Shown: in pieces, positions 1,084 through 61,699 of the stretch
Layout of the letters: every line of letters starts with the position of its first letter
Position numbering within the stretch: the first letter of the stretch is position 1
IMG/VR virus record: IMGVR_UViG_3300036402_000303
Span: 1-64,000 of that record
Source: a virus
Length of the DNA stretch: 64,000 bases
Strand: one strand, 5' to 3'
Notes under the pieces: model-generated
Databases searched by the model: none
Told to the model about the DNA's origin: nothing
What the model saw: the letters and a program-made list of their open reading frames with translations, nothing else
Position numbers and translations under genes: made by a program

Positions 1084-1902
1084 TTATAGGACGGCCACGT
1101 CGTAGCGGTCGGTGACACGGCCTACGATGCCGAAGCAGCAGGTAAGGCGAAGACCGCGACCATCGGCGTGCTGTGCGGCGGCTTCACGGAGGACTCGCTG
1201 CGGCAGGCCGGATGCGTCGAGGTGTATCCAGGGCCGGTCGCCCTCCTTGCTTGCTTCGGGGACTCGCTCCTCACAAGATAGATCCCATGGCGCGAAGCCG
1301 GCGATGGTCACGGTCTCCCGCTGCGCGCAGGTCTTCTTCACCCAGTCATTGCTTCGCCCGGTCGGGTAGACGCTGTCGCGCACCTTCGGCACCACGCCTT
1401 CCAGGCTGTCGACCTCGAAGCTTTCGCTGAACTGGACGTCGGTCCCGGCGATGATCTTCTTCAGTTCGGCCTTCCGCTGGAACAGCGGCACTTTCCGGAG
1501 ATCGCGCCCGTTCAGATAGAGCAGATCGAAGGCGACCAGAACGATGCTGGTCGACTTGCCCTTGAGCTTGTTCTGCAGCACCGCGTAGTCCTTAATACCG
1601 TCGGCGGCCGGAACTACGACCTCGCCATCGATGACGGCGGAGCCTGCCTTGATGTGCCAGGCGTCGTGGGCGACTTTCTTGAAGCGATGTGTCCAGTCGT
1701 GACCGCGCCGGGAGAATATCTGCAGCTCTTCGCTGGCAAGGTGGACCTGGACCCGGTAGCCGTGGAATTTGATTTCGTGAATCCAGCGGGACCCGGACGG
1801 CACCCTGTCGATCGCGGATGCCACGGCCGGCTCGATGAAGCCCGGCAGCGGCACCTTGATGCTTGATTTCGGCAGATTTCCTACGCTGGAACGCCCCGAC
1901 AA
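1084..1902 (-). pseudogene. Degenerate LigD-type ATP-dependent DNA ligase fragment
   Basis: Residues ~30-215 match the adenylation domain of LigD-type ATP-dependent ligases. The motif I lysine sits in HEIKFHGYR, motif III is close to VAFDLLYLNGRDLR, and a late motif reads LEGVVPKVRDS followed by TGRSNDWVKK. Between the phrase FEVDS and LEGVV about ten residues that the family normally has are missing. After TIAGFA the sequence no longer resembles the OB-fold domain and runs into unrelated residues to the stop. The product would therefore lack the nucleic-acid-clamping domain, and the gene is probably a decaying remnant. Ku or the rest of a repair operon is not present here. Alternatively it could be a translated but inactive protein. 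Confidence 0.6.
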
Positions 1903-5558: not shown

Positions 5559-6160
5559 AGATCTTCTCCGCCGTCTTGCCGGGCGAGCGTGGCCGGGTTT
5601 ACACCCTCCAATTCACGCCATAATCTTTCGGCCTCTTTGTCGAGTCGAGGCCAATAGACATCTGCCGAACCTGCGGTATCCGCAACTGGTAAACCGAGCA
5701 CTGTAACGTCTGCGATCCTAGCCCAAGTGGCATTGGAAGCAACGGGCTGATTGAGATCCTCCGAAGGGCTTGGCCAGATTATGTGTTTGCGGCAGACTCG
5801 AAATGAGAGTTCCAATTCCCTGATCATCACCTGCAAATCTTTCGTCGGCGCGGTCGGTAACGCGAGAATGAGATACCCATCGACCACGCGACCATTCACT
5901 TGCGCTTCTTTTACTCCAAGCAACTCGTCGAAATAGCTTTGGCCTTGCTCTGCCGCCAACTGCAATTCTTCTGCACCAATTTTCTGGATCGGCCAAAGTA
6001 ACAAGCTAGCATAATCACTCGCCCAGAGCGTCGTTCCACGCGGAGGATCAATAGCAAGATTCTTGAACGTGGGAATTAACTCCATTCGAAATCCAACCTT
6101 TTCGCAAAGATCGCTGATCTCTAGCTGAGCGTTCTCAAGAAGATCTGCATTGATGCTCAT
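5555..6160 (-). CDS. Middle component (~200 aa) of the ATPase/nitrilase cassette
   Basis: A 201-residue cytoplasmic protein without signal peptide. Its central part reads VDGYLILALP followed by a helix IRELELSFRVCRKHIIWP. The combination of a conserved hydrophobic strand and a C-R-K-h-h-h-W motif is reminiscent of the small middle components (MC) of ABC three-component systems; this assignment is from memory of the family and needs a profile search. It lies 3 nt downstream of the nitrilase-fold gene and overlaps the ATPase start by 4 nt, which fits a stoichiometric bridge between the two. No catalytic motif is visible. Confidence 0.65.
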   Translation of the reverse strand: MSINADLLENAQLEISDLCEKVGFRMELIPTFKNLAIDPPRGTTLWASDYASLLLWPIQKIGAEELQLAAEQGQSYFDELLGVKEAQVNGRVVDGYLILALPTAPTKDLQVMIRELELSFRVCRKHIIWPSPSEDLNQPVASNATWARIADVTVLGLPVADTAGSADVYWPRLDKEAERLWRELEGVNPATLARQDGGEDL

Positions 6161-6163
6161 CGT

Positions 6164-8284
6164 TCAGGCCGCCTTCGGATTGAAGTATCGTCTAAGACGC
6201 AAGATCAATTCTTTCAGATCTTCCTCGTCTCCGGGCTTGCTCACGTCGTAGTCGGCATAGACCGAATTCACCGCGTCCAGCCTTACGCAAGCGACGGAGC
6301 GCTCGAATTGCGACGCCGTGATATCACTTTTGATTGGTGCAAGACTTCCTCCGACATGCAGGTCATCAGCTCCAGGCGGAGGCTCGCCAAAATTCGCTCT
6401 GCGGCCGCTCTTGACCAATCCTTCAGGCGGCGCGCCGTGCGGGCCATCGCAGAGAACAATGAGCGGTGGGTGATATCCAACGATTGTCTTCCAAGCAACA
6501 ATCTCTGACAAGATCTGACGTTGCGTCCTTTCCGCATCCTGCCAAACAAGGATTGTCAGCTCATCGGCAAACCGCAATTGCCCCTGAATGTCATCATCGC
6601 TTTGCCAGACAATTCCCTTCGACGTTGAGATCGTTGCAAGTGCAAACATCGCATTTCGAAATGAATGCTCGACAGCCGGTACATGCAAGCGGTCCGGGTC
6701 ATGAATTGTTCCCGAGCTAACACCGTGCAAGAGTGTTCGTAGAAGCCGTTCTGACGTCGGCCGATCTCCCGCATCCAAGTGTACGGCCAATCGCTTAAGG
6801 CCTTGGCCCACCCGAGGTGCCCAAGTAACCAGCGGCGGATGTCGATGCAAGAATCGGGCGACTTCGGTTTGGCAGATCGGGGGTGGCTCAGTTACGGGCG
6901 CTGATATGCCGGCGTTAACGAGAGAACAACACAGGCTCGCGTGCCAAACAAAGAGGTTGCCCGTTGGGACATAAGGACTCCACGCTATCGGCCCTCCAAC
7001 GATCTGAGGCCGCGTGTCTCGAACGACGGCCCCCCTAACGTTTTGGCTCTCGATAGCCCGACCAGCCGGCAAATTCTTCTGATTGCGTGGTATTTCTGTG
7101 AAGCGAGCATAGACGCCAGACAGGGAACGCCATTTGTCGGTAGCCTCGTCCGCCAGGTAACAACTATTGGCGATGTTCGCTAGCGCTACCACAGTGGGTC
7201 TGCCGATCGTTGCTACATTGAGCCAATAATTAATCGCCGCATTCCAGTTGTCGTTCTGACGTACTTGATAGGTCGAGCCCGCGACAAGCACGGGACGAAC
7301 GGTGCCTCTACTCGGCACGAGAGACTGTTCGATACGCCTTAGCGCTGTCCCCTCCCCGTCGGCATAAGATTGAACAAGATCAGCACAAATTAGGGGGAAA
7401 ATGTCCAGATCGTTGAAGGCAATACGCAAGAGCATCTGACCACATGCCAGCGCAAGCTGCGCCTCTGCAGTCTGCTCAAGATGGTTTTTCAGGTGTGCAA
7501 TGCACATTGTCTCGGCAGCGAACCCGTGGATCCAACACCACCCGCCGTTAACCCGTAGGACATTGGAGATTGGCTGCTCGTCTTGATCCCATCCCAAATG
7601 GCGCGAGGTTACTCCGGCTGTTGCAGCCCATTGCAGCACGTCCTGGCCCCTAGTCGCACCAAATCCCGCGATAAGAACGAGCGGTTGAGGGCTAGCCCGC
7701 ACCGCCGCATCAATGGCGACCCAATCACCTGAGCCGAAGGCGTACTCGGGAGCAATAATCACCGCTGGAAGATGGCCCGGAGCCAAGTCGCGCAGCACGG
7801 GAGCACCGTGTCGAGCCCCCCCATTGAGTAGGTCGTTAATCACCGCGACCGTGGATGGCCTCGATGCGTCCGATCCAATCCACTCTAGAGGCGTTGGCTC
7901 GGTTTGAAGAATCACAAGATTGAGCCGGCCGTCTGCTAATCTGACGTTTGCGTCAACTGTCAAACTGGCGATTTTTAGATGGGTATCGAATTCAATCACG
8001 GGAGGGGACACTATCAAATTGGTGGGACCAGAATGACTATAACCACCATAGCGGTGGTGCACGAGCACGTCACCAACAGGTTGTAGTGGAGGCGCATATA
8101 ATCGCTTTGTTGAAGGCGGCTTCCATTGCGAGCTTACCATTGACCACAAGGCTTTCAGCAATGTCAGCAATAGCGATGTGACCGCTGACGTCGTAGTCGG
8201 CCCGGTGCGGCAGCAATGCGTCCATCTTTGTTTCCCCCGAGTAGATGCAGTGCACGGGAGGAGCAACTTCAGGCGGTCATCCAT
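6164..8284 (-). CDS. Nitrilase-fold protein, putative effector of ATPase cassette (5' end probably frameshifted)
   Basis: In the continuous frame the carbon-nitrogen hydrolase signature is visible in order: Glu in IIAPEYAF (~180), Lys in IAHLKNHLE (~266) and Cys in FPLICADL (~300). A further ~400 residues of unassigned sequence form the C-terminus. Nitrilase-superfamily enzymes cleave non-peptide C-N bonds; here the likely role is an effector that consumes a small molecule or modifies a partner. The first ~60 residues look unnatural. Another frame, starting at an ATG at 8225 behind a GGGGGAA site, encodes a natural-looking N-terminus (DYDVSGHIAIADIAESLVV), then runs into a stop. The two frames would join near 8095-8115, so a single-base shift (mutation or sequencing error) is likely and the ancestral start is 8225. 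The rest of the cassette lies immediately downstream. Confidence 0.7.
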   Translation of the reverse strand: MDDRLKLLLPCTASTRGKQRWTHCCRTGPTTTSAVTSLLLTLLKALWSMVSSQWKPPSTKRLYAPPLQPVGDVLVHHRYGGYSHSGPTNLIVSPPVIEFDTHLKIASLTVDANVRLADGRLNLVILQTEPTPLEWIGSDASRPSTVAVINDLLNGGARHGAPVLRDLAPGHLPAVIIAPEYAFGSGDWVAIDAAVRASPQPLVLIAGFGATRGQDVLQWAATAGVTSRHLGWDQDEQPISNVLRVNGGWCWIHGFAAETMCIAHLKNHLEQTAEAQLALACGQMLLRIAFNDLDIFPLICADLVQSYADGEGTALRRIEQSLVPSRGTVRPVLVAGSTYQVRQNDNWNAAINYWLNVATIGRPTVVALANIANSCYLADEATDKWRSLSGVYARFTEIPRNQKNLPAGRAIESQNVRGAVVRDTRPQIVGGPIAWSPYVPTGNLFVWHASLCCSLVNAGISAPVTEPPPICQTEVARFLHRHPPLVTWAPRVGQGLKRLAVHLDAGDRPTSERLLRTLLHGVSSGTIHDPDRLHVPAVEHSFRNAMFALATISTSKGIVWQSDDDIQGQLRFADELTILVWQDAERTQRQILSEIVAWKTIVGYHPPLIVLCDGPHGAPPEGLVKSGRRANFGEPPPGADDLHVGGSLAPIKSDITASQFERSVACVRLDAVNSVYADYDVSKPGDEEDLKELILRLRRYFNPKAA

Positions 8285-8829: not shown

Positions 8830-9022
8830 ATGGAGAAAAAACCTGTCCTACATCTACGACCCCTGTAACGATCGACCTGTTCTCGCTGTTCGCCTTAAGA
8901 CCCACGAAATGGCTCGCATCGACGAAGCCCGTCACCGCATGAAGCTCTCGCGAAGCGACCTAGCTCGCCGTGCGTTGAGCAGCCTTTTAGATAAGCTTCA
9001 GGCTGAAGCTGCCGCGAAGTGA
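8830..9022 (+). pseudogene. Small ribbon-helix-helix-like protein, frameshifted in an A6 run
   Basis: The ATG at 8830 opens with ATG GAG and then six A residues. With five A residues it would read MEKNLSYIYDPC and continue as RPVLAVRLKTHEMARIDEARHRMKLSRSDLARRAL to the TGA at 9020, a plausible 62-residue DNA-binding protein of the ribbon-helix-helix type. With six, translation stops after 12 codons. The part from the internal ATG at 8909 (37 codons) remains open. It lies directly upstream of the replication gene, where a small copy-control regulator would be expected. Homopolymer slippage or a sequencing error are both plausible; transcriptional slippage could also restore the frame. Confidence 0.5.
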
Positions 9023-9099
9023 TCCGTCATCACGAGAAAAAGCCCCGAAAGCGCGTCGACGCTCCGGGGCCGATAACCTATTTCGTCACAGGAAACACC

Positions 9100-10104
9100 A
9101 TGCCACAACACAACCGCAAAAACAAATCCAGTAACGACAATAACCGCCCGTCTCCAATCATCACCTCACCGGAAGGTGTGAAGATTCAGATTACCGCTGG
9201 CCGCAAGCTTCAAGCGATCCGCTCCTTTGCCCGTGATCCTGAAATTACAGACGCCCAATTCAGGTCGATAGTCTGCATCGTTGACCGGCTGAATGAGGGG
9301 CGTGGCGAAGAGAGGCTCTGGGGAAGTGCCTATCCGAACTTCGAAACGCTGGCAGCAGATATCGCGAAGGATGTGCGCTCTGCAAAGCGAATCGTCAAAG
9401 AACTGGAAACCGGCCAGCGTGAAACCCGTTCCGACGGAGTAAAGAAGCTGAGCCCCGGCAAGGTCGTTCTGAGCGTCCAGCGATCAAAGGATCAGGACGG
9501 AAAGGACAGTGTTAATGAGTACCGCTTGAAGGAATGGGGTGCGTTCGTTGTCGCAGAACAATTCGAGGAGGGTGCGGTGACCGCACCCATACAGTCCGGG
9601 GAGGGTGCAGTGACCTGTAAGGAAGGGTGCGGTGACCTGTCAGGGAGGGTGCGGTCACCTGTCGGGAAGGGTGCGGTGACCGCACCCGACTCTACCCACT
9701 TACTCTCCTCAGAAACTCCACCCACAAACTCACCTCACATGGCGCCCGCCTGCGTCGAGCGTGAGCCGGTTGCTTCGATTGTTGATGAAGTCCGACCCAC
9801 CCAACCGGGAAATGACAACGATCCAGAATGGCCGTCAGCGGACGATGCCGTCGCCAAGTTCGCATTCCACTACCCCAAGGCAGTAGATCCTTCGAAGATA
9901 CGCAATCTCTTAGAAGAGATCAGGAAAGACGGCCGGACCAAGTTTAAGGATATCCTGCGAGGTGCCAGCCACTACAAGAAAGAGACGGTTGAGACCAAAC
10001 TCGAGTTCATCAAGTGGCCGGAGAACTTCTTGAAGGGCCGGCACTGGGAAGGGTATCAGCGAGACCGCACCAAAACGAGGTTCAAGAAGGTCGTGGCGAT
10101 CTAA
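9100..10104 (+). CDS. Replication initiator-like helix-turn-helix protein
   Basis: I start at 9100, where AGGA precedes the ATG at good spacing; upstream in-frame starts lack this. The 334-residue protein has a winged-helix-like segment (NFETLAADIAKDVRSAKRIVKELE) of the type found in phage and plasmid replication proteins. Its C-terminal domain (FAFHYPKAV..., FKDILRGASHYKK, WPENFLKGRHWEGYQ) is typical of rhizobial replication proteins. Between them lies a low-complexity linker encoded by the iteron array described separately. The likely role is binding those repeats and recruiting replication machinery for the integrated element. It follows the small RHH-like gene and precedes a terminator-like hairpin. 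Confidence 0.65.
   Translation: MPQHNRKNKSSNDNNRPSPIITSPEGVKIQITAGRKLQAIRSFARDPEITDAQFRSIVCIVDRLNEGRGEERLWGSAYPNFETLAADIAKDVRSAKRIVKELETGQRETRSDGVKKLSPGKVVLSVQRSKDQDGKDSVNEYRLKEWGAFVVAEQFEEGAVTAPIQSGEGAVTCKEGCGDLSGRVRSPVGKGAVTAPDSTHLLSSETPPTNSPHMAPACVEREPVASIVDEVRPTQPGNDNDPEWPSADDAVAKFAFHYPKAVDPSKIRNLLEEIRKDGRTKFKDILRGASHYKKETVETKLEFIKWPENFLKGRHWEGYQRDRTKTRFKKVVAI
9570..9681 (+). repeat. Iteron array (five 13-bp repeats) inside the replication gene
   Basis: Five near-identical copies of GGGTGCGGTGACC begin at 9570, 9603, 9625, 9647 and 9669; the second has one change (GCAG) and the fourth has GGTCACC. Spacings are 33, 22, 22 and 22 bp, so all sit on the same helical face. Because 22 is not a multiple of 3 the copies are read in different codon phases (EGAVT, GCGDL, GRVRS), which shows the constraint is on DNA, not protein. 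Copies 1 and 5 extend into a dyad with 9-bp arms around a central G. This is the pattern of replication iterons and resembles the lambda origin lying within gene O. Confidence 0.75.
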
Positions 10105-10116
10105 GGCTGACAATCC

Positions 10117-10148
10117 CCACCGGACCTCGAAAGGGGAGGCCGGTGGTT
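10117..10148 (+). terminator. Terminator-like hairpin after the replication gene
   Basis: CCACCGG followed by CCTC pairs with GGAGG and CCGGTGG across a short purine loop just after the stop codon at 10104, followed by TTTC. The stem is strong but the T tract is short, so it may be a weak terminator or an mRNA-stabilising hairpin. Confidence 0.45.
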
Positions 10149-10471
10149 TCCGTGCGTGGGGCGAAGGATCGACCCTAGGTGTCTCACAGCGCGTCAGCTC
10201 TAGTTTTGAGGCGCCCGCCGGGTGGTCACCTTATCGACCGTGGTACACCTCCCGAGCGGTCCTGAGTGTACTCTCGATTGAGCGTGAGGTGCATCGACCC
10301 GGCTCCTTGCGCACTCCTTAAAGAGAGCAATTGTGATTTTCTTCCGCGGTCGTCCGACTTATGCCTGAAAACAGCGCGTTTCCTCAATTCTGGGGCTCAG
10401 ATCTTGAGATGACATTCGCTGCTATTGCCTAACAGCTGGGTGCTGACATTTGCATCCGGTTTGTGCGCCTC
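10149..10471 (+). other. Intergenic, no gene seen
   Basis: About 320 nt between the hairpin and the next promoter. No open frame with natural composition, RNA gene or repeat is seen on either strand. Confidence 0.4.
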
Positions 10472-10500
10472 TTGACAAAAGAAGGGTATCCCTGTACAAG
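10472..10500 (+). promoter_or_regulatory. Sigma-70-type promoter
   Basis: TTGACA at 10472-10477 and TACAAG at 10495-10500 are separated by exactly 17 bp. The predicted start is near 10507. A terminator-like structure ends about 65 nt later, so the immediate transcript may be a short RNA or an attenuated leader for the genes beginning at 10735. Confidence 0.5.
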
Positions 10501-10534
10501 ACCTGACACCCTGCAAGAATTCTGAAAATCACCC

Positions 10535-10571
10535 AACCCGCAAAACCCCGCCCTCACCGGCCGGGTTTTTT
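10535..10571 (+). terminator. Rho-independent terminator-like structure
   Basis: AACCCG at 10535 can pair with CGGGTT at 10562, the latter running into six T residues (10566-10571). The interior is GC-rich and can fold further (CCGGCCGG). It would end the short transcript from the promoter at 10472. Confidence 0.4.
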
Positions 10572-10734
10572 CCGTTTTGGGGGTCGGAATTTTTGGCCGA
10601 TATCGCATCCGCCAGCCCGATCATCAGCATTTGCCGGGCGGTCCTGCCACCTCTCGCCACACCGCAACCCACCCCTAACGTCCGCACGTCATCGCGCGGG
10701 CAAACCTTGACCCATGTCTCAACTAGGAAATTTC

Positions 10735-10932
10735 ATGCCGCAAGAACTAAACGTAGCAAACATGTGGACCGAACCGACTCGGACTGTCGGCACGGTCTTT
10801 CCTCGATCGATGGTCGATGCGATCGAAGTTCGAGCGAGAGCCGAACTAATTTCTCGATCGTCTTGGATGCGCCGAGTCATCCTCGCCGAGCTTTCGAAGC
10901 GGTTCTCGGTGACTCAGGAACAGAATCGATGA
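10735..10932 (+). CDS. Small ribbon-helix-helix-like protein
   Basis: I choose the ATG at 10735 because AGGAA lies 6 nt upstream; an ATG at 10714 has no such site. The 65-residue product has a short strand (VGTVFPRSMVDAIEVRAR) followed by two helices (ISRSSWMRRVILAELSKRF), which fits a ribbon-helix-helix DNA-binding fold. It is translationally coupled to the next gene by an ATGA overlap. It could be a copy-control or operon regulator. Confidence 0.55.
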   Translation: MPQELNVANMWTEPTRTVGTVFPRSMVDAIEVRARAELISRSSWMRRVILAELSKRFSVTQEQNR

Positions 10933-11189
10933 AGAACTTGGATTTGATATCTGGCTGGTCCAATACGCTTACGGCTTTGCGCTGTTACACTCGGTCACGG
11001 GGTGTTGCACTTTCGTCTGAGCTTGAGAACCAGCTGACGGTCGCGCTTGTCGGCCGCATTAAGTTTGCGACGACGGACGAGCCTGTAGTGTTTGTCGACG
11101 ATAATGGCAAAGAGCACGATCTACTCACTCACGTCCTTGGAAGGCGGCCGGTCACGCCGCGGGCTCAGCTCAAACGAGAGGCAGCGTAA
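10929..11189 (+). CDS. Hypothetical protein, 86 aa
   Basis: The ATG overlaps the previous stop (ATGA), and the next gene begins directly after its TAA. The protein begins MKNLDLISGWSNTLTALRCY and includes FVDDNGKEHDLLTHVLGRRP. No family is recognised. The frame is open further upstream, but the overlap argues for this start. Confidence 0.5.
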   Translation: MKNLDLISGWSNTLTALRCYTRSRGVALSSELENQLTVALVGRIKFATTDEPVVFVDDNGKEHDLLTHVLGRRPVTPRAQLKREAA

Positions 11190-11576
11190 ATGGCCGATCC
11201 TCTCGAAACCTTGATCCTGACAGAAGCCCGCAAGCAGGGCTGTCAGCCGAATACAGACGCAATGCGACAGGCGACCATTCATCTTGCCGGGGCTACCCTA
11301 AACGACCAAGGCCTGATCCATTTACCGAACGTCGGCAGCATCGCTCCGGCCGATTTCATTCGCTCGCTGCGAAGCCAGGCGCCGGAGTCGTTTGCAGCCC
11401 TCAGCGACAAACCGCCGGTCACTAAATCGAGCGGCAATCTGACGGCCGACATGAAGGCCGAAGTTGCTGCAAACCGCCGCCAGCGGGCGTTACCCAGCGA
11501 CTGGTGGGCCGTTCGCTCGAATACCACCGGAACCACGGCCCAGCACATGGCCGAACGCGAAAGGAATTGGAAGTGA
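11190..11576 (+). CDS. Hypothetical protein, 128 aa
   Basis: Starts at the base after the previous TAA and ends overlapping the next start (GTGA). It is soluble, with an N-terminal part about small helices (LETLILTEARKQG) and a C-terminal segment rich in Ala, Arg and Trp (ALPSDWWAVRSNTTGTTAQHMAERERNW). It looks like a small phage or plasmid structural/regulatory protein, but no family is recognised. It is the third gene of a four-gene coupled operon. Confidence 0.55.
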   Translation: MADPLETLILTEARKQGCQPNTDAMRQATIHLAGATLNDQGLIHLPNVGSIAPADFIRSLRSQAPESFAALSDKPPVTKSSGNLTADMKAEVAANRRQRALPSDWWAVRSNTTGTTAQHMAERERNWK

Positions 11577-11854
11577 GACGACCGGGATTTATCGCTCGCC
11601 AGAAGGCGGCGAAATTGAAAGCGGAGGGGTATGACGTTGGCGAAGGCGTTCGGGCCGCTCGTGGCCTTGCCCTCGCGCTATATGATCTCCGCAGACGGCA
11701 ATGCGACGCCGACCAGCGAGTCAATAATGCCCGTGCAAAGCTTGAAGCCGTTGACGTGTCCGCGCTGGAAGTTGAACTTTCCGCCGCGTTGGCGGAACAA
11801 GCAGCAGTCTCGGGCGAGTTGAAGGCGCTAGAGCAGCAAGCGTTGGCGGCCTGA
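11573..11854 (+). CDS. Hypothetical coiled-coil protein, 93 aa
   Basis: Begins at the GTG overlapping the previous TGA by 3 nt and continues RRPGFIARQKAAKLKAEGYD. The C-terminal half is a predicted helix rich in Ala, Glu and Leu (ALEVELSAALAEQAAVSGELKALEQQ), probably a coiled coil. It closes the operon starting at 10735; function unknown. Confidence 0.5.
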   Translation: MRRPGFIARQKAAKLKAEGYDVGEGVRAARGLALALYDLRRRQCDADQRVNNARAKLEAVDVSALEVELSAALAEQAAVSGELKALEQQALAA

Positions 11855-12136
11855 CGGCAAGCGGGTTAGATTTTGGACGGCAGTCACGGCCTCGCCCCCG
11901 GGGGCTGCAGTCCCTGGAGGCGCCGTGGATGATTGATGCTCGAAAGATCCTGGGCTCGCGGCTTTCATGTGCATCACGTCTCCGGCGGTTGCTGACCCTT
12001 ACTGCCGACCGACAAAGGATCGTGACCAGATCGCCAAGGCCGGCAACGTTTCTCCGGTTGGATACTTGGCTTCAGGACTATGCTGCATTCAGTTCATTCC
12101 GACTCGCGACGGGCTTATGCTAAACTCCCCGGCCGA

Positions 12137-12880
12137 TCATGCCCGACTGGATCGTTTGTTAGTACCACCAGCTACTGCGTTTTGTTTCGGTAGTCGTGAC
12201 AAGACGCGCTTCACCTGTACTGCTTGCCACTGACCACGGCCGCGTGGCGTCTCAACGCCCTGATCGCTGAGGCGCGAGGCAATGCCGCTAAGTGACGTTA
12301 CGCCGGCAGCCTGTAGCTCTAGGATGGCAAGTGCAGCATTTGCGGCCTTGGCGTCTGCGCGCTTGGCGATGGTCTCCCTGCCCTTCGCAATCGCATCAAG
12401 AGTTAAAGTGACTGGCTTACCGTCAGCGTGTGTCCGCCGACCGCCAAGCTTCACGCCCCGGGCTTTAGCGGCCTGTAAAGCGGCCGTTGTGCGGGCAGAA
12501 GCCATGCGCCGCTCTTCTTCCGCAACCATTGCCATGATGCCGATGGTCAGCCGGTTGGCGTTGGGCATGTCGGCAGCCACGAAATCAACGCCGTCCTCTT
12601 CCAATCCGAGAAGGAAATGCGCATTGCGGGAAAGCCGGTCCAACTTTGCGATGACCAGCTTCGCACCAAACATCCGGCATGCAGCACGGGCCGCCTCGAG
12701 CTGCGGCCGGTCGGATCGTTTGCCGCTCTCGACTTCCGTGAATTCTTTGACGAGCTTCCAGTCGCCTCCATTCAAATAAGCGGCGACAGCCGCTCGTTGA
12801 GCTTCAAGACCGAGGCCACTTTTGCCCTGCTTGTCTGTCGAGACGCGATAGTACGCGACCCATTTTCCAGTTGCTTTCAT
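12137..12880 (-). CDS. Serine recombinase (resolvase/invertase family)
   Basis: The 247-residue protein begins with the catalytic domain: AYYRVSTDKQ with nucleophile Ser14, the loop GLEAQRAAV, and the arginine-containing LDRLSRNA. It then shows the E-helix (GIMAMVAEEERRMASARTTAAL) and a helix-turn-helix region ending LSDQGVETPRGRGQWQAVQVKRVL. The size is that of small resolvases/invertases rather than large serine integrases. It would cut and rejoin DNA at short dyad sites, such as the one found just upstream. In this element it may resolve dimers or invert or mobilise a segment. Confidence 0.85.
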   Translation of the reverse strand: MKATGKWVAYYRVSTDKQGKSGLGLEAQRAAVAAYLNGGDWKLVKEFTEVESGKRSDRPQLEAARAACRMFGAKLVIAKLDRLSRNAHFLLGLEEDGVDFVAADMPNANRLTIGIMAMVAEEERRMASARTTAALQAAKARGVKLGGRRTHADGKPVTLTLDAIAKGRETIAKRADAKAANAALAILELQAAGVTSLSGIASRLSDQGVETPRGRGQWQAVQVKRVLSRLPKQNAVAGGTNKRSSRA

Positions 12881-12895
12881 CTCGGTCCTTACATT

Positions 12896-12917
12896 CTAGT
12901 CAACGTTCGTTGACTAG
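12896..12917. promoter_or_regulatory. Perfect 10-bp inverted repeat upstream of the recombinase gene
   Basis: CTAGTCAACG and CGTTGACTAG form a perfect dyad separated by TT, 16 bp upstream of the recombinase ATG. The position fits an operator for autoregulation or half of a recombination (res-like) site. No second copy was noticed nearby. Confidence 0.55.
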
Positions 12918-13275
12918 TTTGTATACAGCGGGTGAGGCCTCAGCAACCGAAAACTTGCACACGATCAAAGAATCTTGCTCTCGAATCGTCAGGTCATGAC
13001 GCGGCGGCGGGCGAGGCACCTTGCTGTGTAAGGGCAGGCCCAAACATCCGCTGCATTGATCCATCCACCACGGCTTCCCAGCGCTGCACGTCGACGGCGG
13101 TGTGTCCGCGCGCCCGTGATCGATGGCCGAACTTTTCTGACGGTATGCCGCCGCATCGACCGACCGCTCAACGCAACGAATTCCTAAAAGGCCATTTACC
13201 GGCCCCCCATACGCCCCTCCAAAAGACCCACCCTATTCAGCGGGCCGCTCTAAATCGCTGCCAGAAAGAAAAAAC
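12918..13275 (+). other. Intergenic, no gene seen
   Basis: About 360 nt between the recombinase promoter dyad and the tape-measure gene. Short open frames here have no natural composition. The last ~20 nt are A-rich and could include the ribosome binding region for the gene at 13276. Confidence 0.4.
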
Positions 13276-16200
13276 ATGTCCGAAAACCTATCCGTCATGA
13301 CCAAGTTCACAGCTCATGACGAAGCTTCGCCAGTCGTCAGGAAACTGCTGTCGAACATCCAGCGGCTTGAACGCGGTGTGAAGAACTTCAACAGCGCGTT
13401 TGGTGCATCCGCTGACGCCGGAACTGCCGCGTTCGGCAATTGGTCGAAATTGACCGACCGATTGAACCAATCGTTAAAGGCTTCTGTCCGTGGCGCAAAC
13501 GATTATGGCCGGGAATGGCAGCGGAATCATGAAACCCGTCTGCGTGGCGAACAGCGCTTGCACGCCTCAATCCTTCGCTTGGATCAAATTGCCTTTAATC
13601 GCCGCATGTCGCAGCATGCCGCCATCACCAGGCAGCAATCAAGTCTTACACATCGTGAACCCGCTCCATCGCGCATGACCGGTAGTAGCCGGTACGGCAT
13701 CTCGCCAGTGAGGACCGCAATCGTCGGTGGCATCGCCTCTGCGGGCATCGCGTCGGTCTTCAAGCGCCGAATGGAAATCGACACCGCTGAAGTGAAGGCC
13801 AGAATTTTCGGAGAGCTTTCGAAAGACGATATCAAGCAGTCCCGTCGCTGGATCGATAAAGACTCGATCAAGTACGGAGTTTCGTCTGGCAAGATCGTTG
13901 ATGCCTTTACGGAATCGCTCAAGGCCGGATTCAGCCGGGATGCGGCGCAACAGATCGCGCAAGGCGCTCTGAAGGCCCAGAGCGCGGTCGAACTCGATAT
14001 CGGCCAGCTGATTAAGCTGAGCGGCAAAACGGCAACTATTTTCGGCGGCGACGTTAAAAACACGGATCCAGCCCGCGTCTTGAAATTGATGAATGCCATT
14101 GCCGTGGCGTCGGCTGAGACCGCCGCGGACCCGGATGAGGTCATTGAAGGCTTCAAGAAAGGCAACGCAGCGCTGGCGATGTCGAAAATGTCGGAAGCCG
14201 ACCTTGCGGCGATTCTGTCGGTCGGCATCTCGGGCGGCATCCAACCAAGCAAGGCGGGAAATGCCGTCTCCAATCTGGTCTCGACTATTGTCGGCGGCAA
14301 GAGCGCTCGCGGGCAGAAGGCCCAAGACTTGAACGAAGCCGCCCGCATGCTCGGTTACGGTGGCAAGAACAATCTTTCAGATCGGATGACGAACGATCCG
14401 ACCAACGTCCTGGTCGAGATGTTCCAGCGATTGAACGCCTTGTCGGAGCAGAACAAAACCAAGGTTGCTCGCAGGCTCGGTGGGTCAGAATGGGACGATG
14501 AGATTTTGATGCTGGCTAAGCCGGTCGATCAGATCGTTGCGACGCTCAGGGCCGTGAAGTCCAAAGTAGATATGATGGACAAGTCATCGGCTGAGAAGCT
14601 GAATTCGCTTCAAGGACGGTGGTCTAGCATCTCGGCTGCGTTCGGTCTCGGATTGGAGAAATTTGGAGCAGGCTTCGAAGATCCATTTATCGAGATCTCC
14701 GACTGGTTCCGATCAAAAATCGATAAGCTTGATTTCGATTCCGTCAGGAGGAAATCAAAGCAACTCGTCGACGGATTTAAGGCGGCTTTTGGTATTGCAG
14801 ATATCAAGCAGTCCCTCGACGGCATGCTGAGCAAAATTCAATCCACCAACGTCACGAAGGTTGTTGATTTTGCGGCCGGGGTCGCGTCAGGCATCAAATC
14901 GGTCGCTGACAGTTTCGCAACTGCGATCAGATCCATCGCCAGCGTCATGGGCAAGGATGGTAATGACACCGCAGTCCTCGGCAAACTCACCGGACAGATC
15001 ATCGGCTTGTCCGTAGCGTTAGGATTGCTGGCGCCTGTCCTGACCGTGCTCGCGGGCTTGATTGGCATTGTTCGTGGTGCAGCACTGTTGCTTGGAGTCG
15101 GCACTGCCGCCCGCATTGGTGCACGTACTGCACTTGGAGTGGCCGGTGGACCCGCCGCTGGGATGGCGTTGCTTGGCGACGGTAAGCCCGGCAATAGCGC
15201 ATCCGACATCACCGGGCTTCAGGACGCGATCAAAGCGGAGAGGGAGAGGAAGCGTCTGCTTAAGGAAGCTGGTAAGGGCGATGGCAGAGCCGACCCGCTC
15301 TTCCATCCGACCAGCCTCCGCAGCGACATCGGCGACAAGTTCGATAAGATGGGCGCGAAGCTTGAGCGCATCGCCTTCCAAGGCGGCGGGATGACCGACC
15401 TCAGTTCGAGAAATCGGACCGGTGGCGGCATCCAGAACGCCATAATGGGCGGCGGATCAAGCAGCGGCGGCACCGGTGGTATGACAAAATTGCTCAGCGG
15501 CGTCGGAACTCCGAGCGCTTTGTTCAATGGCGTGCCGGGTAGCGCTTTGCCAAACTTCGGCATAGGCCGCAGCGGAACCATCATCAGGCGAGGCGGAGTT
15601 GGTGGCATCGTCAACCAGGACAGTATCCCGTCGTTCACTGGCGGTGGTGGATCGGTGGCCGACAATGTCGGGGCCGGCTTGTCGGGTAACGCGTTCCTTG
15701 CAGCTCGCCGAGGAAAGTTCGCCGAGGAGATGAAGAACGATCCAAGCCTGAGGATGCATCTCGCTGCCATGCAGCAGACCGAGGGTATCAGCAAAGGCGG
15801 AACTATTGAGAGCCTGATGAACCGCGCGGACATGCAAGGGAAGTCCCTCCGGCAGATGCTTGGCTACAGTGCTGACGGACAGATCAACCCGAGGAGCTTC
15901 TACGGTCCAATCCGTCGAGGTGAACTCGGTCCGGCAATCCGCAGGCTGCAGAGCAACCCGAAGGAGTTCGCGAAGTACGACGGCTACACCCAGCGCGCTC
16001 TTGCGGGCAATCACGCCATTGGCGGTTACACTGACCAGGGCCTGCCCACTGATCCGAACGGATCGAAGAGAACCGGCGGTCGGTTCCCGTTCATGAAGAT
16101 CAGTCCGAAGGACGGTAACGAGTTCACTGATTGGGTTGGACCGGGATCGCAATGGGGTAAGGGCCGTGCCGGTGCGATGAACTATCGCAAGTTCATCGAA

Positions 16201-16446
16201 AACGGCATCGCCGGGTCCGGCCCGGTGACCAGCAACGTGCCTTCAGCTGCTGAGAACATTCAGAACGTCCCGATGCTGAAGCCGAATAACGACGCAGGTC
16301 TCGGCGGCAGGGGCGGTCGTGGCGGCTCGACGATCAATATCAACGGTGGAAGCCATGACGCGGAGTCGCTTGCAACGCTGGTCCAGCGTCGCGTCGACGA
16401 CTCGATGCAGTGGCGAACCCACGACAGCGAGTCTGAATATACATGA
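13276..16446 (+). CDS. Orphan phage tail tape-measure protein with C-terminal hydrolase-like domain
   Basis: The 1056-residue protein has the layout of a TP901-type tape-measure protein. A helical N-terminus is followed by a conserved core (KYGVSSGKIVDAFTESLKAGF, GNAVSNLVSTIVGGKSARGQ, LSEQNKTKVARRLGG), hydrophobic segments at ~575-640 (GLSVALGLLAPVLTVLAGLIG) and a glycine-rich linker. Residues ~800-980 (AARRGKFAEEMKNDPSLRMHLAAMQQTEG, ESLMNRADMQGKSLRQML) resemble a murein-hydrolase-like domain seen in alphaproteobacterial phage proteins. Such proteins set tail length and help penetrate the cell wall. No other tail genes surround it; its neighbours are replication and recombination genes. It is therefore either a leftover of a deleted prophage or part of a satellite-like element. 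Confidence 0.75.
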   Translation: MSENLSVMTKFTAHDEASPVVRKLLSNIQRLERGVKNFNSAFGASADAGTAAFGNWSKLTDRLNQSLKASVRGANDYGREWQRNHETRLRGEQRLHASILRLDQIAFNRRMSQHAAITRQQSSLTHREPAPSRMTGSSRYGISPVRTAIVGGIASAGIASVFKRRMEIDTAEVKARIFGELSKDDIKQSRRWIDKDSIKYGVSSGKIVDAFTESLKAGFSRDAAQQIAQGALKAQSAVELDIGQLIKLSGKTATIFGGDVKNTDPARVLKLMNAIAVASAETAADPDEVIEGFKKGNAALAMSKMSEADLAAILSVGISGGIQPSKAGNAVSNLVSTIVGGKSARGQKAQDLNEAARMLGYGGKNNLSDRMTNDPTNVLVEMFQRLNALSEQNKTKVARRLGGSEWDDEILMLAKPVDQIVATLRAVKSKVDMMDKSSAEKLNSLQGRWSSISAAFGLGLEKFGAGFEDPFIEISDWFRSKIDKLDFDSVRRKSKQLVDGFKAAFGIADIKQSLDGMLSKIQSTNVTKVVDFAAGVASGIKSVADSFATAIRSIASVMGKDGNDTAVLGKLTGQIIGLSVALGLLAPVLTVLAGLIGIVRGAALLLGVGTAARIGARTALGVAGGPAAGMALLGDGKPGNSASDITGLQDAIKAERERKRLLKEAGKGDGRADPLFHPTSLRSDIGDKFDKMGAKLERIAFQGGGMTDLSSRNRTGGGIQNAIMGGGSSSGGTGGMTKLLSGVGTPSALFNGVPGSALPNFGIGRSGTIIRRGGVGGIVNQDSIPSFTGGGGSVADNVGAGLSGNAFLAARRGKFAEEMKNDPSLRMHLAAMQQTEGISKGGTIESLMNRADMQGKSLRQMLGYSADGQINPRSFYGPIRRGELGPAIRRLQSNPKEFAKYDGYTQRALAGNHAIGGYTDQGLPTDPNGSKRTGGRFPFMKISPKDGNEFTDWVGPGSQWGKGRAGAMNYRKFIENGIAGSGPVTSNVPSAAENIQNVPMLKPNNDAGLGGRGGRGGSTININGGSHDAESLATLVQRRVDDSMQWRTHDSESEYT

Positions 16447-19169: not shown

Positions 19170-20852
19170 TCATTGATGGGCAGTAAAGCCGCTGAGGAGT
19201 TCCGGGTCTGACGGATTGGCGACCTTGGGTATGGCGTCGATCACGCGGGTCATAGCCATCACAGACACGTCGCCATAGTCATCGCCAGATGTTCGCGCCG
19301 CATGACCTTGGATGGCATCAACGACTCGCGGATCAAACCCAAGGTCGCGGCTGATCGTCTTGAAGCGATGCCGCCATGCATGGTTAGGCTGGACTCGTTC
19401 GTCGGTGACAACCGTCCGTACCAGAGCTACGACTTGAGTGTAGCAGCCCTCTGCAAACAGCGGCCCGTCATCTGACTCATCAACGAACTCCAATAGGCCT
19501 AATTCGATCAGGTGTTGGTGGATCGGCACGAGTCGAAATATCCCGGTTTTGATCCCGCCAGCCAGCGGGTTCAGGTCGAAAATTTGACGTCCGGACTCTT
19601 CACGGATGTCCTCCTTGCGAAGCTGCAAGGCCTCGCTGATCCGGCAGCCAGTGTAAGCGGCAATAAGAGGAGACCACCGCTTGGTTGCCGCCGTTCTGGG
19701 ATACTCTTTCGGTTTTCGCACGTAAGACAAGCACGCGCGGAAAACAGCTGCCGATTCCTGATCCGTGAACCCCTTTTTCCGGGTTACAATTTTCTTCGGC
19801 GCTTTGATTTTAACTGCATCAGCCGGATTCTTGGTTAGCTTTCGATTGTCCACGGCCCAGCCGAGCACCGACTTAATCCCCGGCAGATCGCCGTCTTTGA
19901 AGGTCTTTGCGGTCACCACCTTGAGACGGGCATCCTTGTATTCAAGCATGTTTGCCTCTGTCAGGCGGCTTGCATCATCGTGATCAAGATGTTTAACGAG
20001 CCTGTCGATGGCGCCCTTGTAAGTGTCATATGTGCTTTGGGTACGTCCGGTAGCCTTGGCTTCCTTCCACCACAGGTCAAGCAATCCCGTGATCGTCTGC
20101 TTTCGTTTCGCCGCTGCGACGGTTTCGACCAGCGGGAAGCGAATGGCCTTTGGGTCAGGGCTGTAGTCGCCCTCTGCATTGCGTTTCAGTTGCCAACCAG
20201 CATCTAACGAGGCCGTCCCGACGAGGCGAAGGAGGCGTTGCCGATCTTCCGGGACAAGGTGAATGCGATGCCGAATTAATACGTAGTCCGTCAGCAAGCC
20301 GAACCGCTCTTGGAGGACGTTGTACTGCCCGGCAGGGAAGGCGTTGATCGCCTCCGTCAGGTTTCCAGTCCCGAATAGCTCTTTCGCGAGGGCCGCCTCA
20401 TTCACCTTAAGAGTGGCGGGTGGAGTACTCGGGATGCGTCCCTCAATCGCCGCTCTATGGAACGCTTTGTGGTAAGCCCAGACATCCGGCTCTCCGGGAT
20501 CATTCCCATGAACTTCCTGATAGAGCCGGTATGCCTCGCCGCTCAGTGCCACCATATCCTTGTGCGACAAGCTGACAGGACCAGCGGCGGTCATCTCAAA
20601 TAGCCGCTGCAGGTGCTCAAGGGCGTCCACATGACGCGCCTTGGCAATGCGTTCGTCGCTTTCCCCAAGGGAGAATGCAACGTCGGTCCCGATGGTCACG
20701 ACCTTGATGTAGGCCGGTCCAAGCTGGCTCGACAGGTGCAATAGAACTTTCATGCCGCGTAGCCGGTCAACAACTTTGGCCGGGACGCGACAGCGGAATT
20801 GGGGGACGCTGGATCGGGAACGCTTATCCATCAAGTACTTTAAGGAAACCAT
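19170..20852 (-). CDS. int: Tyrosine integrase of the left element
   Basis: The C-terminal catalytic domain carries the tyrosine-recombinase residues: Arg in TGCRISEAL, the H-x-x-R box HAWRHRFKT, His in QGHAAR and Tyr in DDYGD. The N-terminal part resembles the long SAM-like arm-binding regions of rhizobial integrases (about 560 residues in total). An in-frame ATG at 20879 is also possible; I prefer 20852. The start is 73 nt from a tRNA-Thr 3' fragment, which is the expected attachment site for this enzyme. It probably integrated the element on its left side. Confidence 0.85.
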   Translation of the reverse strand: MVSLKYLMDKRSRSSVPQFRCRVPAKVVDRLRGMKVLLHLSSQLGPAYIKVVTIGTDVAFSLGESDERIAKARHVDALEHLQRLFEMTAAGPVSLSHKDMVALSGEAYRLYQEVHGNDPGEPDVWAYHKAFHRAAIEGRIPSTPPATLKVNEAALAKELFGTGNLTEAINAFPAGQYNVLQERFGLLTDYVLIRHRIHLVPEDRQRLLRLVGTASLDAGWQLKRNAEGDYSPDPKAIRFPLVETVAAAKRKQTITGLLDLWWKEAKATGRTQSTYDTYKGAIDRLVKHLDHDDASRLTEANMLEYKDARLKVVTAKTFKDGDLPGIKSVLGWAVDNRKLTKNPADAVKIKAPKKIVTRKKGFTDQESAAVFRACLSYVRKPKEYPRTAATKRWSPLIAAYTGCRISEALQLRKEDIREESGRQIFDLNPLAGGIKTGIFRLVPIHQHLIELGLLEFVDESDDGPLFAEGCYTQVVALVRTVVTDERVQPNHAWRHRFKTISRDLGFDPRVVDAIQGHAARTSGDDYGDVSVMAMTRVIDAIPKVANPSDPELLSGFTAHQ

Positions 20853-20924
20853 GGTCTGTGTGGCACCATTGTGTGGCACTCAGGACCGAATTTCCAATAA
20901 AATCAACATCTCCAATGGGATGAG

Positions 20925-20977
20925 TGGTGCTGCCAGACAGGATTGAACTGTCGACCTCTCCATTACCAATGGAGTGG
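20925..20977 (-). other. tRNA-Thr(GGT) 3' fragment, attachment site
   Basis: On the minus strand this reads as the anticodon arm (CTCCA-TTGGTAA-TGGAG, anticodon GGT), variable loop, T-arm (GACAG-TTCAATC-CTGTC) and acceptor end (TGGCAGC-ACCA). The D-arm and 5' acceptor strand are absent: the match ends at 20977. This is the classic footprint of integration at a tRNA 3' end. Two integrase genes lie on either side within 75 nt, so it is the junction of two tandem elements. The intact tRNA should lie to the right, beyond the right-hand element. Confidence 0.8.
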
Positions 20978-20993
20978 GCGATTTGACATAAAC

Positions 20994-22325
20994 TCATGCG
21001 GGACGGGCCTTTCTTGGCTTTGCTACACCGTCGCGTGTCAGGTTCGTGCCCATATCATCCAGCTCATTCACCAGCTGGCGCCGGTATTCCGGGGCGTCGT
21101 GCGAATAGCCCATGACCGACCGGATATCGAGCCAGCCGCCTTGCTCCATTGCCGCGCGGGGGTCTCGCCGCAGCATCTTCTGAGCCAGCATGTGCCTGAA
21201 CCAGTGCTGCGTCACCTTGCCGATCAGGGCGGCGTCGGCGCCGGCCTGGTCCCGCGCTTCGGCAGCGGCCTTACGCTGGCCCGCCTTCATCAGCCGCGTA
21301 TAGGTGGCCTCGCCAGCGTCGATAATGGCCGCAGCGGCCCGGCGCTTTGCTGCATTGAAGCCGGTCTTGTTCTGGCCACCGCCTGCCTTGCCATTGTCGG
21401 CGTAGGGCTGGCGGCGGTAAGTCAAGAATAGCGGTGCCTCCCGGTCATGCAGCTTGCCACGCCATTTCAGATAATCCTTCAGCACCGCCACCGCGGTCGG
21501 ATCCAGCGCCGCGGAAACGTCCTCGCCGTTCTTCGTGGCGGGGAATGTGATCTGCTCCCGGCCCTTGGCAAGGATCAGGTCGCATACTCTTGCGGCATAG
21601 ATGATCGAAGACACCCTGGCACCGGTGGCCCGCTCCACAGCGAGCTGCGCCCTGATGCTGATGTGGCAGGCATCAAACAGCGCCCTCACCAAGTCCGGCC
21701 GCAGATCCGTCACCCGCCGGCGGACCCGCCGGTTCGGATTGCGGGCAGCCTGATCGCGTTCGAACTTCGGCACCTCAGCAAGGCCGTGGTTTCGCTGAGA
21801 ATAGTGCAGAAAGGACAGTAAGCCGCCCAGGAAGCGTTCGCGGGCCGACGCTGTGTTGCCCGTCATCCGGCCTGGGAACGCGCTGCCGTCAGGCTTTGCG
21901 CCGCCGTCGATCCATTGCTTCCACTCGTCGGGCCGCAGCTCGTTGAACCGTCGAGCGCCGAACTTCTTGACCGTCTCCTTGACGATATTGACCGAGGTAG
22001 CGCCAAGCGGCCGGCGCCTGGGCATTGCCAGGTAGGCCGCGGCGGCTATCGCAACTGGATCACCTCGCCCAGCTTTGCCGGTGACCTTCGCTTTGACGTC
22101 CTCGATGTAGGAATCGAGCGCTGTTTCTGCTTCGGTCTGGCTGGTGGCCGCAACGGCCAGGCCAAGACTTTGTCGGACGCGGACTGAACGGCCTGCGACC
22201 CGTAGGGTACCGACTGCGTGCCAGTTACCGTCTCGCTCTTTGAGCGCGATCCCGCGAGCACGCCGCCCGGGGCGCTTTCCCTTTCGATCGCCGCCTCGAG
22301 ATTTTGGAACGCAGTCGCCGACCAT
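20994..22325 (-). CDS. int: Tyrosine integrase of the prophage
   Basis: The catalytic residues are visible: Arg in ATGARVSSI, HWFRHMLAQ, and the final GYSHDAPEYRR. The N-terminus (ALKERDGNWHAVGTLRVAGRSVRVRQSLGL) fits an AP2-like arm-binding domain. The frame is open to 22403, but I place the start at about 22325 because upstream residues overlap the excisionase-like gene in another frame and look unnatural. The stop is 17 nt from the tRNA-Thr fragment. It is the last gene of a minus-strand early operon running from 26490. Confidence 0.8.
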   Translation of the reverse strand: MVGDCVPKSRGGDRKGKRPGRRARGIALKERDGNWHAVGTLRVAGRSVRVRQSLGLAVAATSQTEAETALDSYIEDVKAKVTGKAGRGDPVAIAAAAYLAMPRRRPLGATSVNIVKETVKKFGARRFNELRPDEWKQWIDGGAKPDGSAFPGRMTGNTASARERFLGGLLSFLHYSQRNHGLAEVPKFERDQAARNPNRRVRRRVTDLRPDLVRALFDACHISIRAQLAVERATGARVSSIIYAARVCDLILAKGREQITFPATKNGEDVSAALDPTAVAVLKDYLKWRGKLHDREAPLFLTYRRQPYADNGKAGGGQNKTGFNAAKRRAAAAIIDAGEATYTRLMKAGQRKAAAEARDQAGADAALIGKVTQHWFRHMLAQKMLRRDPRAAMEQGGWLDIRSVMGYSHDAPEYRRQLVNELDDMGTNLTRDGVAKPRKARPA

Positions 22326-22474
22326 ATCCGTTTCCGTCCGCGCATCGTGTGAAACTGAAACCGCCGATCGTCGATGGCGCGCAGCAAGTCTGCCGCCAGC
22401 CATCCGTCAAGGGTGCGCTTGCCGATTCTAAGATCGGCCGCGACCTCGTCCATTGTGCGGTCGCCTGCAGCCAT
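22046..22474 (-). CDS. Excisionase-like helix-turn-helix protein
   Basis: The first ~70 residues (TMDEVAADLRIGKRTLDGWLAADLL, then RRFQFHTMRGRKRIWSATAFQNLEAAI) form a winged-helix MerR/Xis-like DNA-binding domain with a terminal contact strand, as in phage excisionases. The remaining residues overlap the integrase gene in another frame and may be only partly meaningful. Its ATG shares one base with the stop of the 29-codon gene upstream (TGATG), and it lies just before int, as is typical for xis. Confidence 0.6.
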   Translation of the reverse strand: MAAGDRTMDEVAADLRIGKRTLDGWLAADLLRAIDDRRFQFHTMRGRKRIWSATAFQNLEAAIERESAPGGVLAGSRSKSETVTGTQSVPYGSQAVQSASDKVLAWPLRPPARPKQKQRSIPTSRTSKRRSPAKLGEVIQLR

Positions 22475-28333: not shown

Positions 28334-29005
28334 TCACCGCCTGTTGTACTTTCCGACCACCCGGTGACAGATCGGCCAATCGACGCGATCGACACTGAAT
28401 TTCCGCTCCGGATTGAACTGTTCCAACCGCCATTTGTCGGCGGTGTAGGACAACAGGTTCTTGATCATGGATTCGCCCTCGCCCGTCTTGGGGTCGTGGT
28501 CGTAGAAAACGTGAACTTCGTCATTCAACGGCTGCAGGCCGGGGTGTATCAGCGCCATGTCGCCGTGGCGGTAGGCGGGGGCCATCGAATTGCCGGTGAT
28601 GAGGATGCCGTAAGCGCCGGTGACGCCTTCAAGGTTTGCCGGGCGCCGGACGCGCTCGATGACGTCGGTGGTGACGATCATGTGGCCGTCGCCGCCGGCG
28701 GTCGCGGCGTAGATCGGAAAGTCGCGGTCGCCGACGAGCTCGGCGCCGGGGATGATCTGCGGGGTGAAGGTGTCCGGTTCCTGTGCCCGCGCCTTTGGCG
28801 GGTCCCCGACGCCTTCCATCAGCCACGGTAGACTGACCTTCAGAACGACCGCCAGCGCTGGCAGCTTGTCGGGATCCGGCCGGGTCTTACCGGCCTCCCA
28901 TTGCGTCACGGACACGCGGGCCACGTCGAAATGCTTTGCCAGCTCGTGCTGCTTGAGGCCGGCGGCGCGGCGGGCTAGGCGGATACGGTCACCGAGATCT
29001 GTCAT
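28334..29005 (-). CDS. CI-like repressor (HTH plus S24/LexA-type peptidase)
   Basis: Residues ~5-60 are an HTH_XRE domain (LKQHELAKHFDVARVSVTQWEAGK). The C-terminal half is an S24 peptidase fold with Ser140 in GNSMAPAYRHGDM and Lys182 in SMIKNLL. An Ala-Gly pair (YAATAGG, ~103-104) lies 36 residues before the serine, the spacing found in LexA and lambda CI. RecA-stimulated self-cleavage and SOS induction are therefore likely. I start at ATG 29005 (GTG 29011 is also in frame). The gene diverges from the Cro-like gene, with operators between them. Confidence 0.85.
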   Translation of the reverse strand: MTDLGDRIRLARRAAGLKQHELAKHFDVARVSVTQWEAGKTRPDPDKLPALAVVLKVSLPWLMEGVGDPPKARAQEPDTFTPQIIPGAELVGDRDFPIYAATAGGDGHMIVTTDVIERVRRPANLEGVTGAYGILITGNSMAPAYRHGDMALIHPGLQPLNDEVHVFYDHDPKTGEGESMIKNLLSYTADKWRLEQFNPERKFSVDRVDWPICHRVVGKYNRR

Positions 29006-36472: not shown

Positions 36473-36958
36473 GTGCAGGGAATCAGCAGGCGCGAGTTTG
36501 CAAAGCGTGACGGATGCTCCGAAACGCTGGTGCGCAGAGGCCTTAAACAAGGGCGTTTGGTCGCTTACGACGACGGCACGATTGATCCGTCATTGGCCTG
36601 CACCCCGTGGCGCGAACGGGGTGCGAACAGTTCGCAGGGTTCGCAGCAGGATGAGGGTGGTGAGCTTGTAAGCTACGCCGAGGCGCAGCGTCGCAAGGAA
36701 AACTATCTAGCCCGGCTCCGACAACTCGAGTTCGAAATCAAATCGGGCAAGCTGGTCGACGCCGAGGCAGCACGGAAGGCCGTCTTCGAACTTTCGCGGC
36801 AGGACCGTGACAGCTGGGCGAACTGGCCGTCCCGCGTAGCGCCGCTGATCGCCGCTGAACTCGGGGTCGATCTCGTCAAGCTGGCGGTGATTTTGGAAAA
36901 GCATGTCAGAGACCAGCTCGCCGAACGAGCCCAGCCAACGTTACGAATGGCAGGCTGA
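36473..36958 (+). CDS. terS: Terminase small subunit
   Basis: Starts at a GTG. The N-terminus is a winged-helix/HTH of the Nu1 type (ISRREFAKRDGCSETLVRRGLKQGRL). The C-terminal half is helical (LVSYAEAQRRKENYLARLRQLEFEIKSGKLVDAEAARKAVFELSRQ, quoted in parts) as in small terminase subunits that recruit the large subunit. It overlaps the large subunit gene by 56 nt. It should bind the repeats upstream and start DNA packaging. Confidence 0.75.
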   Translation: MQGISRREFAKRDGCSETLVRRGLKQGRLVAYDDGTIDPSLACTPWRERGANSSQGSQQDEGGELVSYAEAQRRKENYLARLRQLEFEIKSGKLVDAEAARKAVFELSRQDRDSWANWPSRVAPLIAAELGVDLVKLAVILEKHVRDQLAERAQPTLRMAG

Positions 36959-38859: not shown

Positions 38860-39075
38860 ATGACCCGTGAAGAGATCGAAGCGGCGATAGCTCAGATCGA
38901 AATGCAGCTGAACTACGGGATCTCGCGGTCCGATATCTCCGGCGTCGGCTCGACCGAGTGGGATATCGCAGCGCTCCGGAAGCGCCGCGGCGAACTTCAG
39001 GTGGCGCTGGCTGGTATGAACCCTGACAGGCCGATCGTGCGCAGTATTCGAACCTATTCGGACAAGGGTTTATGA
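38860..39075 (+). CDS. Head-tail joining protein, gpW-like
   Basis: A 71-residue protein (MTREEIEAAIAQIEMQLNYG, then TEWDIAALRKRRGELQVALAG). Size, helices and position between terminase and portal match lambda gpW. It overlaps the portal start (ATGA). Confidence 0.7.
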   Translation: MTREEIEAAIAQIEMQLNYGISRSDISGVGSTEWDIAALRKRRGELQVALAGMNPDRPIVRSIRTYSDKGL

Positions 39076-61536: not shown

Positions 61537-61699
61537 CGACCAATCTCGACTGCGAAAGCGGCGAGGGTCGGAACGCTGTAACGTTCCGGATCCACGGGGC
61601 AGTGTTGAGGCCGTCCCGCCTGACATCAATTGGGCTCAATGCCAGCTCGCCGAGCACCACGCTAGGGCCGGGGAGCTTGCTATCAGGTTGAGCATCACA

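Follow-up and report, generated by a model that had tools for sequence, protein, structure and literature searches.

A tRNA-Thr(GGT) fragment as the very probable junction of two elements integrated in tandem at different subsites of one gene

The tRNA-Thr fragment and its surroundings

The window analysed here spans bases 1-64000 of a virus record, linear and 76,726 bases long, and contains a 3' piece of a tRNA-Thr(GGT) gene enclosed by two integrase genes. This piece is, very probably, the junction of two elements, A on the left and B on the right, integrated in tandem at one tRNA-Thr(GGT) gene in the chromosome of a Bradyrhizobium-like (Nitrobacteraceae) soil bacterium. A and B leave tRNA pieces of different length, which indicates different crossover places in the same gene and not one attB. 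The junction is real, and what is already known accounts for most of it; element A is less ordinary than the tandem.

The fragment (20925-20976, minus strand) is an exact 52-nt match to the Nitrobacteraceae tRNA-Thr(GGT), covering tRNA positions 24-75, CCA included. An earlier, sequence-only reading had named the tRNA correctly, from anticodon arm to CCA, but had counted 53 nt; at base 20977, the match to the host gene has already ended. Among the matches listed, the same gene occurs in Bradyrhizobium, Afipia, Nitrobacter and related genomes. A 34-base part of the fragment has a single occurrence in the window and was matched at three or fewer mismatches in none of 100 shuffles. Both the window and the remainder of the 76.7-kb record lack an intact tRNA, a repeat search inside the window gave no further copy of the fragment, and an Rfam scan of the window gave zero matches. 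The longest other match to the tRNA in the record, a 12-nt word at 28410-28421, was judged to be at chance level. Based on the exact match and the shuffles, the fragment is assigned as the attR of element B and, at the same time, as the left attachment site of element A.

Integrase A (19170-20852, minus strand; PF00589, phrog_1) starts at the ATG at 20852, 73 nt to the left of the fragment, and the stop of integrase B (20994-22403, minus strand; PF00589, phrog_1) lies 17 nt to its right, both as read before. These assignments are supported by profile matches and by relatives. A longer open reading frame of integrase A, with a GTG start at 20879, has an extension that is not conserved in relatives. 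The ATG and much of the preceding 72 bases are conserved among them, and the region between the tRNA CCA and this ATG (20853-20924, minus strand) is designated the attachment-site arm of element A. The conserved part includes two GTGCCACACA repeats (20870-20879 and 20857-20866), which could be arm sites of the integrase. The two integrases have only the tyrosine-recombinase family in common, with no significant BLASTP similarity to each other (best E 2.7).

Integrase A and its target subsite

Integrase A was matched at E≤1e-40 in 66 of the 265 Bradyrhizobium genomes searched, and in 12 of these at 67-74% identity; at most five candidates were scored per genome, so absences are soft. All 12 close relatives adjoin tRNA-Thr(GGT) sequence. 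This is a perfect gene at nine loci, a gene with one mismatch, still called tRNA-Thr by ARAGORN, at one (L182/G195), and only a fragment at two (45 nt in L178/G027 and 28 nt in L184/G177). An 18-nt match to this tRNA was found at none of 18 loci of more distant relatives (L190-L207).

The far end of the A-type elements is a copy of tRNA positions 49, 50 or 51 to 75 in all ten elements for which the second copy was fetched. The piece left by these elements is thus 25-27 nt long, and the crossover accordingly lies close to the T loop. Their lengths are 22.4, 22.2, 21.3, 21.6, 21.4, 14.5, 21.6, 24.4, 42.2 and 50.7 kb, the 21.6 kb of G108 being based on an inner copy with one mismatch, with a perfect copy 43 kb from the tRNA. 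Since 20.9 kb of element A are inside the window, its far end should fall a short way past the left edge of the record.

Several loci show variations around this site. About 100 nt are in common between the attachment region of element A and loci L087 and L096, where no integrase A was found. The Bradyrhizobium genome G013 (L052, L066) has a pair of intact tRNA-Thr(GGT) genes 13 kb apart, with an integrase A relative (about 40%) beside one of them, and L056 is a decayed A-type remnant at tRNA-Thr(GGT). In L184/G177 (contig C188), integrase A is followed by a series of nine related ORFs, each about 330 aa long, which are probably repeated insertion sequences.

Prophage B and its target subsite

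Element B is a prophage, probably siphophage-like. On the plus strand, it encodes a phage primase/helicase (32775-34166), the terminase large subunit (36903-38855; phrog_15), a portal protein (39072-40598; phrog_21), a major head protein (42336-43379; phrog_29), an endolysin (57901-59415) and an adenine methyltransferase (61397-62509), of which a homologue is found at the same relative place in record G007. The genes expected of a temperate phage for terminase, portal, head protein, lysis and integration are thus all present. No contractile sheath was matched among the scanned proteins, which are part of those of element B. The nearest integrase in the phage collection is that of Labrenzia phage vB_LagS-V1 (PP058680), 50.6% identical over 88%. 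In its terminase, portal, head and endolysin genes, B resembles the temperate siphophages of Rhizobiales; unlike them, it occupies tRNA-Thr(GGT) in a host of the Nitrobacteraceae.

Ten relatives of integrase B were found in virus records, six of which extend more than 100 nt past the integrase stop. Three of these six (L033, L035 and L038) carry a tRNA-Thr(GGT) fragment of about 48 nt, and no tRNA fragment was recognised past the stop in L039 and L040. The remaining one, L037 (50% identity), adjoins a fragment of a different tRNA (CAC anticodon, by eye), a target change within the integrase B family. In isolate G087 (contig C107), an integrase-B-like gene (35%) adjoins a 50-nt fragment, and the contig also has the intact tRNA, at a distance of 206 kb. 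B-type integrases therefore leave about 48-52 nt, and these lengths, together with G087, place the crossover near the anticodon loop. A close relative of integrase B (>40% identity) was seen in none of the 265 Bradyrhizobium genomes, with at most six candidates scored per genome.

The right end of B was approached through its relatives. Two parts of the record, 64.7-65.6 and 73.0-73.5 kb, contain genes whose homologues lie close to the border of a B-like prophage in G168; this prophage has a shortened tRNA-Asp on one side and a full one on the other, at a distance of 42 kb. This homology suggests that B would reach at least 73.5 kb, with its intact tRNA beyond the record, although the ligase homology at the edge could come from host paralogues instead. 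ATP-dependent ligase-like genes are present toward the outer ends of both elements, at 1084-1902 of the window and 64715-65635 of the record (L002:4715-5635). Larger spans are also seen at this tRNA: in G252 (contig C1), tRNA-Thr(GGT) copies are 186 and 52 kb apart, and integrase-B-like genes (35-38%) lie between or beside the copies of both G087 and G252, possibly marking very large islands.

Tandem arrangement and order of arrival

The succession of integrase B, tRNA-Thr fragment and a member of the integrase A family recurs in two further virus records, the last gene being 31.5% identical over 574 positions in L033 and 29.7% over 249 in L035. With the fragment between the integrases and this arrangement in relatives, the earlier claim that two different elements stand in tandem, each equipped with an integrase, is well supported. 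L038/G007 has the tRNA-Thr fragment and no detectable integrase A behind it; a candidate for a decayed copy there was dropped, as its best match (E 0.043) covers 18 residues. The tandem count in virus records is biased, because such records are often trimmed at host genes, which favours those with a following integrase. In the genome collection, 4 of 80 tRNA-Thr matches are followed within 2.5 kb downstream by a match to the integrase A family, a figure not fairly comparable with the virus records.

An analogous array is complete in isolate G027. It consists of the intact tRNA, an 18-kb element whose own integrase lies next to the fragment, the 45-nt fragment, integrase A with a 24-kb element, and a 25-nt copy, so that all three tRNA copies are present, both outer ones included. 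The 18-kb partner differs from B and carries a 344-aa integrase, assigned by reading its sequence. Of the intact tRNA and second fragment for which the sequence-only reading had proposed a search, neither is in the 76.7-kb record, which leaves the array open at both ends here; probably A and B each run past the record.

In the proposed mechanism, the integrase of prophage B would cross over at the anticodon loop of tRNA-Thr(GGT), regenerating an intact tRNA at its own right end and displacing the 52-nt 3' piece to its left end. The integrase of element A would cross over near the T loop and use as its left attachment site either this displaced piece or the intact gene, before B had arrived. 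The far end of A would then be a copy of about 25 nt, a short way past the left edge of the record. Such a 25-nt end is devoid of the anticodon loop, so B cannot enter there. Consequently, either B entered the intact gene after A, or A entered the piece displaced by B. Both orders of arrival give an identical map, and the record cannot separate them. The sequential insertion proposed earlier is thus retained with regard to the tRNA gene and corrected with regard to the single attB, as A leaves 25-27 nt and B about 48-52 nt. Two integrases acting on one tRNA gene at different subsites imply that neither element blocks the site for the other, and this subsite sharing predicts the possible insertion orders.

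Tandem insertion itself is of an already-known, ordinary kind. In the available text of the Islander study (PMC4383910), 125 tandems of two or more are given among 3919 tRNA/tmRNA islands, with 2083 anticodon-centred sites and 1836 in the T-stem/junction class. In those tandem arrays, every member carries an integrase and a 3' tRNA fragment of its own; here, likewise, there are two integrases, and the fragment lies between the members in tRNA orientation. Unlike the arrays in that text, the members here differ in crossover subsite within a single tRNA gene, and the array ends outside the record.

Other origins of the junction have to be weighed against this tandem insertion. A single element carrying both integrases, the fragment being the internal attP of an unintegrated circular genome, would agree with the absence of an intact tRNA anywhere in the record and with its classification as a virus. 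It is largely refuted and has very little probability left: A-type elements stand alone with integrase A at an intact tRNA-Thr in 9 of 12 cases, the genomes that carry them have no close integrase B (0/265 at >40%, at most six candidates per genome), L038 combines integrase B and the fragment in the absence of integrase A, and the A-type element of G027 has a different partner. A false joining of two metagenome contigs is hardly more probable. The 52 nt that they would have in common are a natural point for such a join, and both expected outer tRNA copies are missing; yet 52 nt is short for a false join, and two other virus records show this order too, as does an isolate genome in which the partner is a different one.

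It is also improbable, though somewhat less so, that the junction is a relic of an older insertion with A or B immobile. Decayed A-type remnants, such as L056, are known at this tRNA. Here, in contrast, both integrase frames are open and full length and contain the R, HxxR, H/W and Y residues (by eye), the arm sequence of A is conserved, and B has replication, packaging, head and lysis genes. Under tandem insertion, A and B would both still be able to move.

Gene content of element A

Element A encodes, from its integrase outwards, a tape-measure-like protein (13276-16446, plus strand), above the cut-offs of PF10145 and TIGR01760, a serine recombinase of the resolvase/invertase type (family c2; 12137-12880, minus strand), a conserved small protein (c5; 11190-11576, plus strand) and a replication-initiator-like protein (9019-10104, plus strand; HTH_36, phrog_270). 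Inside the initiator-like gene, 22-nt repeats (9563-9687, plus strand) form a possible internal origin. A three-gene operon (2673-8284, minus strand; genes 8284-6164, 6160-5555 and 5558-2673) resembles ABC-3C / Lamassu defence systems (CTD3 PF20395, LmuB models) and represents cargo. A ligase-D-like gene fragment (1084-1902, minus strand) lies near the expected far end.

The tape-measure-like protein is present in 11 of the 12 elements with an A-type integrase, that of the window included, and is lacking from the 13 kb read of the G177 element. It is under purifying selection: dN/dS is 0.11-0.37 in 39 of 39 pairs at 60-99.9% identity, pairs for which the window copy is too divergent. The protein has no sequence match among solved structures. 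An origin from the 1199-aa protein of prophage B was discarded, as the two show no similarity (best E 0.60). Several A-type elements also have in common the serine recombinase and the initiator-like gene with internal repeats.

The anti-phage cargo varies between A-type elements. It was surveyed in 79 proteins of five relatives, drawn from 118 ORFs of at least 100 aa in seven elements after leaving out five ORFs that cross locus ends and all ORFs of G266 and G108. Defence genes of the type IIG and type III restriction, DrmMI, Shedu, GmrSD and reverse-transcriptase kinds are included in this cargo. Among 25 listed of the 49 PHROG families of these 79 proteins, none is a capsid, portal or terminase family, and ten scanned proteins of the window's element A gave matches to the integrase and initiator only. 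The satellite hallmarks AlpA, Sid and PICI packaging redirection were not seen among the matches listed.

Element A as a putative phage satellite

By analogy, these features fit a phage satellite with a retained tail gene and exchangeable integrases and cargo; element A may also be a genomic island of the usual sort that has picked up a phage gene. As far as the available text on PICI and P4-like satellites (PMC11364771) goes, A is similar in having an integrase, an initiator-like gene, exchangeable anti-phage cargo and a size of mostly 21-24 kb, and in giving no capsid or packaging match among the families listed. It differs from them in its tape-measure-like protein, the only conserved tail gene found, and in the hallmark genes, not found among the listed matches. 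The available text of open-licence papers on satellites with tape-measure proteins or on Bradyrhizobium tRNA-Thr islands contains no description of element A.

We tentatively propose, as a reading with somewhat less than even chances, that A belongs to an undescribed satellite family of Bradyrhizobium and relatives. Its core would be an initiator with an intragenic origin and a tape-measure protein, coupled to different integrases and accompanied by exchangeable anti-phage systems. The tape measure would act on the tails of a contractile-tailed helper, by taking them over, changing their size or blocking them, and docking behind prophages at the same tRNA, on a different subsite, would allow the satellite to share the site without excluding phages. 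The junction has led to a group of mostly 21-24 kb Bradyrhizobium elements, in which sets of anti-phage genes change and one phage tail gene is kept under purifying selection.

Of the 265 genomes, 26 have a homologue of the tape-measure-like protein, which in 11 cases belongs to an A-type element at tRNA-Thr; at most two candidates were scored per genome, so absences are soft. Seven other loci were fetched, four with the initiator-like gene and five with the small gene c3. G243 and G102 have a homologue with neither the initiator-like gene nor c3, and the G243 locus resembles a real phage, given the contractile sheath gene near its homologue. In G145, G090 and G071, integrase A is absent, and an integrase related among these three is located within 10 kb of the homologue. 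The module of initiator-like gene with 22-nt repeats, c5, c3, serine recombinase and tape-measure-like gene (window 9019-16446; loci L217-L230 and L271-L280) is found in A-type elements and, in part, at other loci with other integrases. A tape-measure homologue is also encoded by Bradyrhizobium phage BDU-MI-1 (31.5% over 68%).
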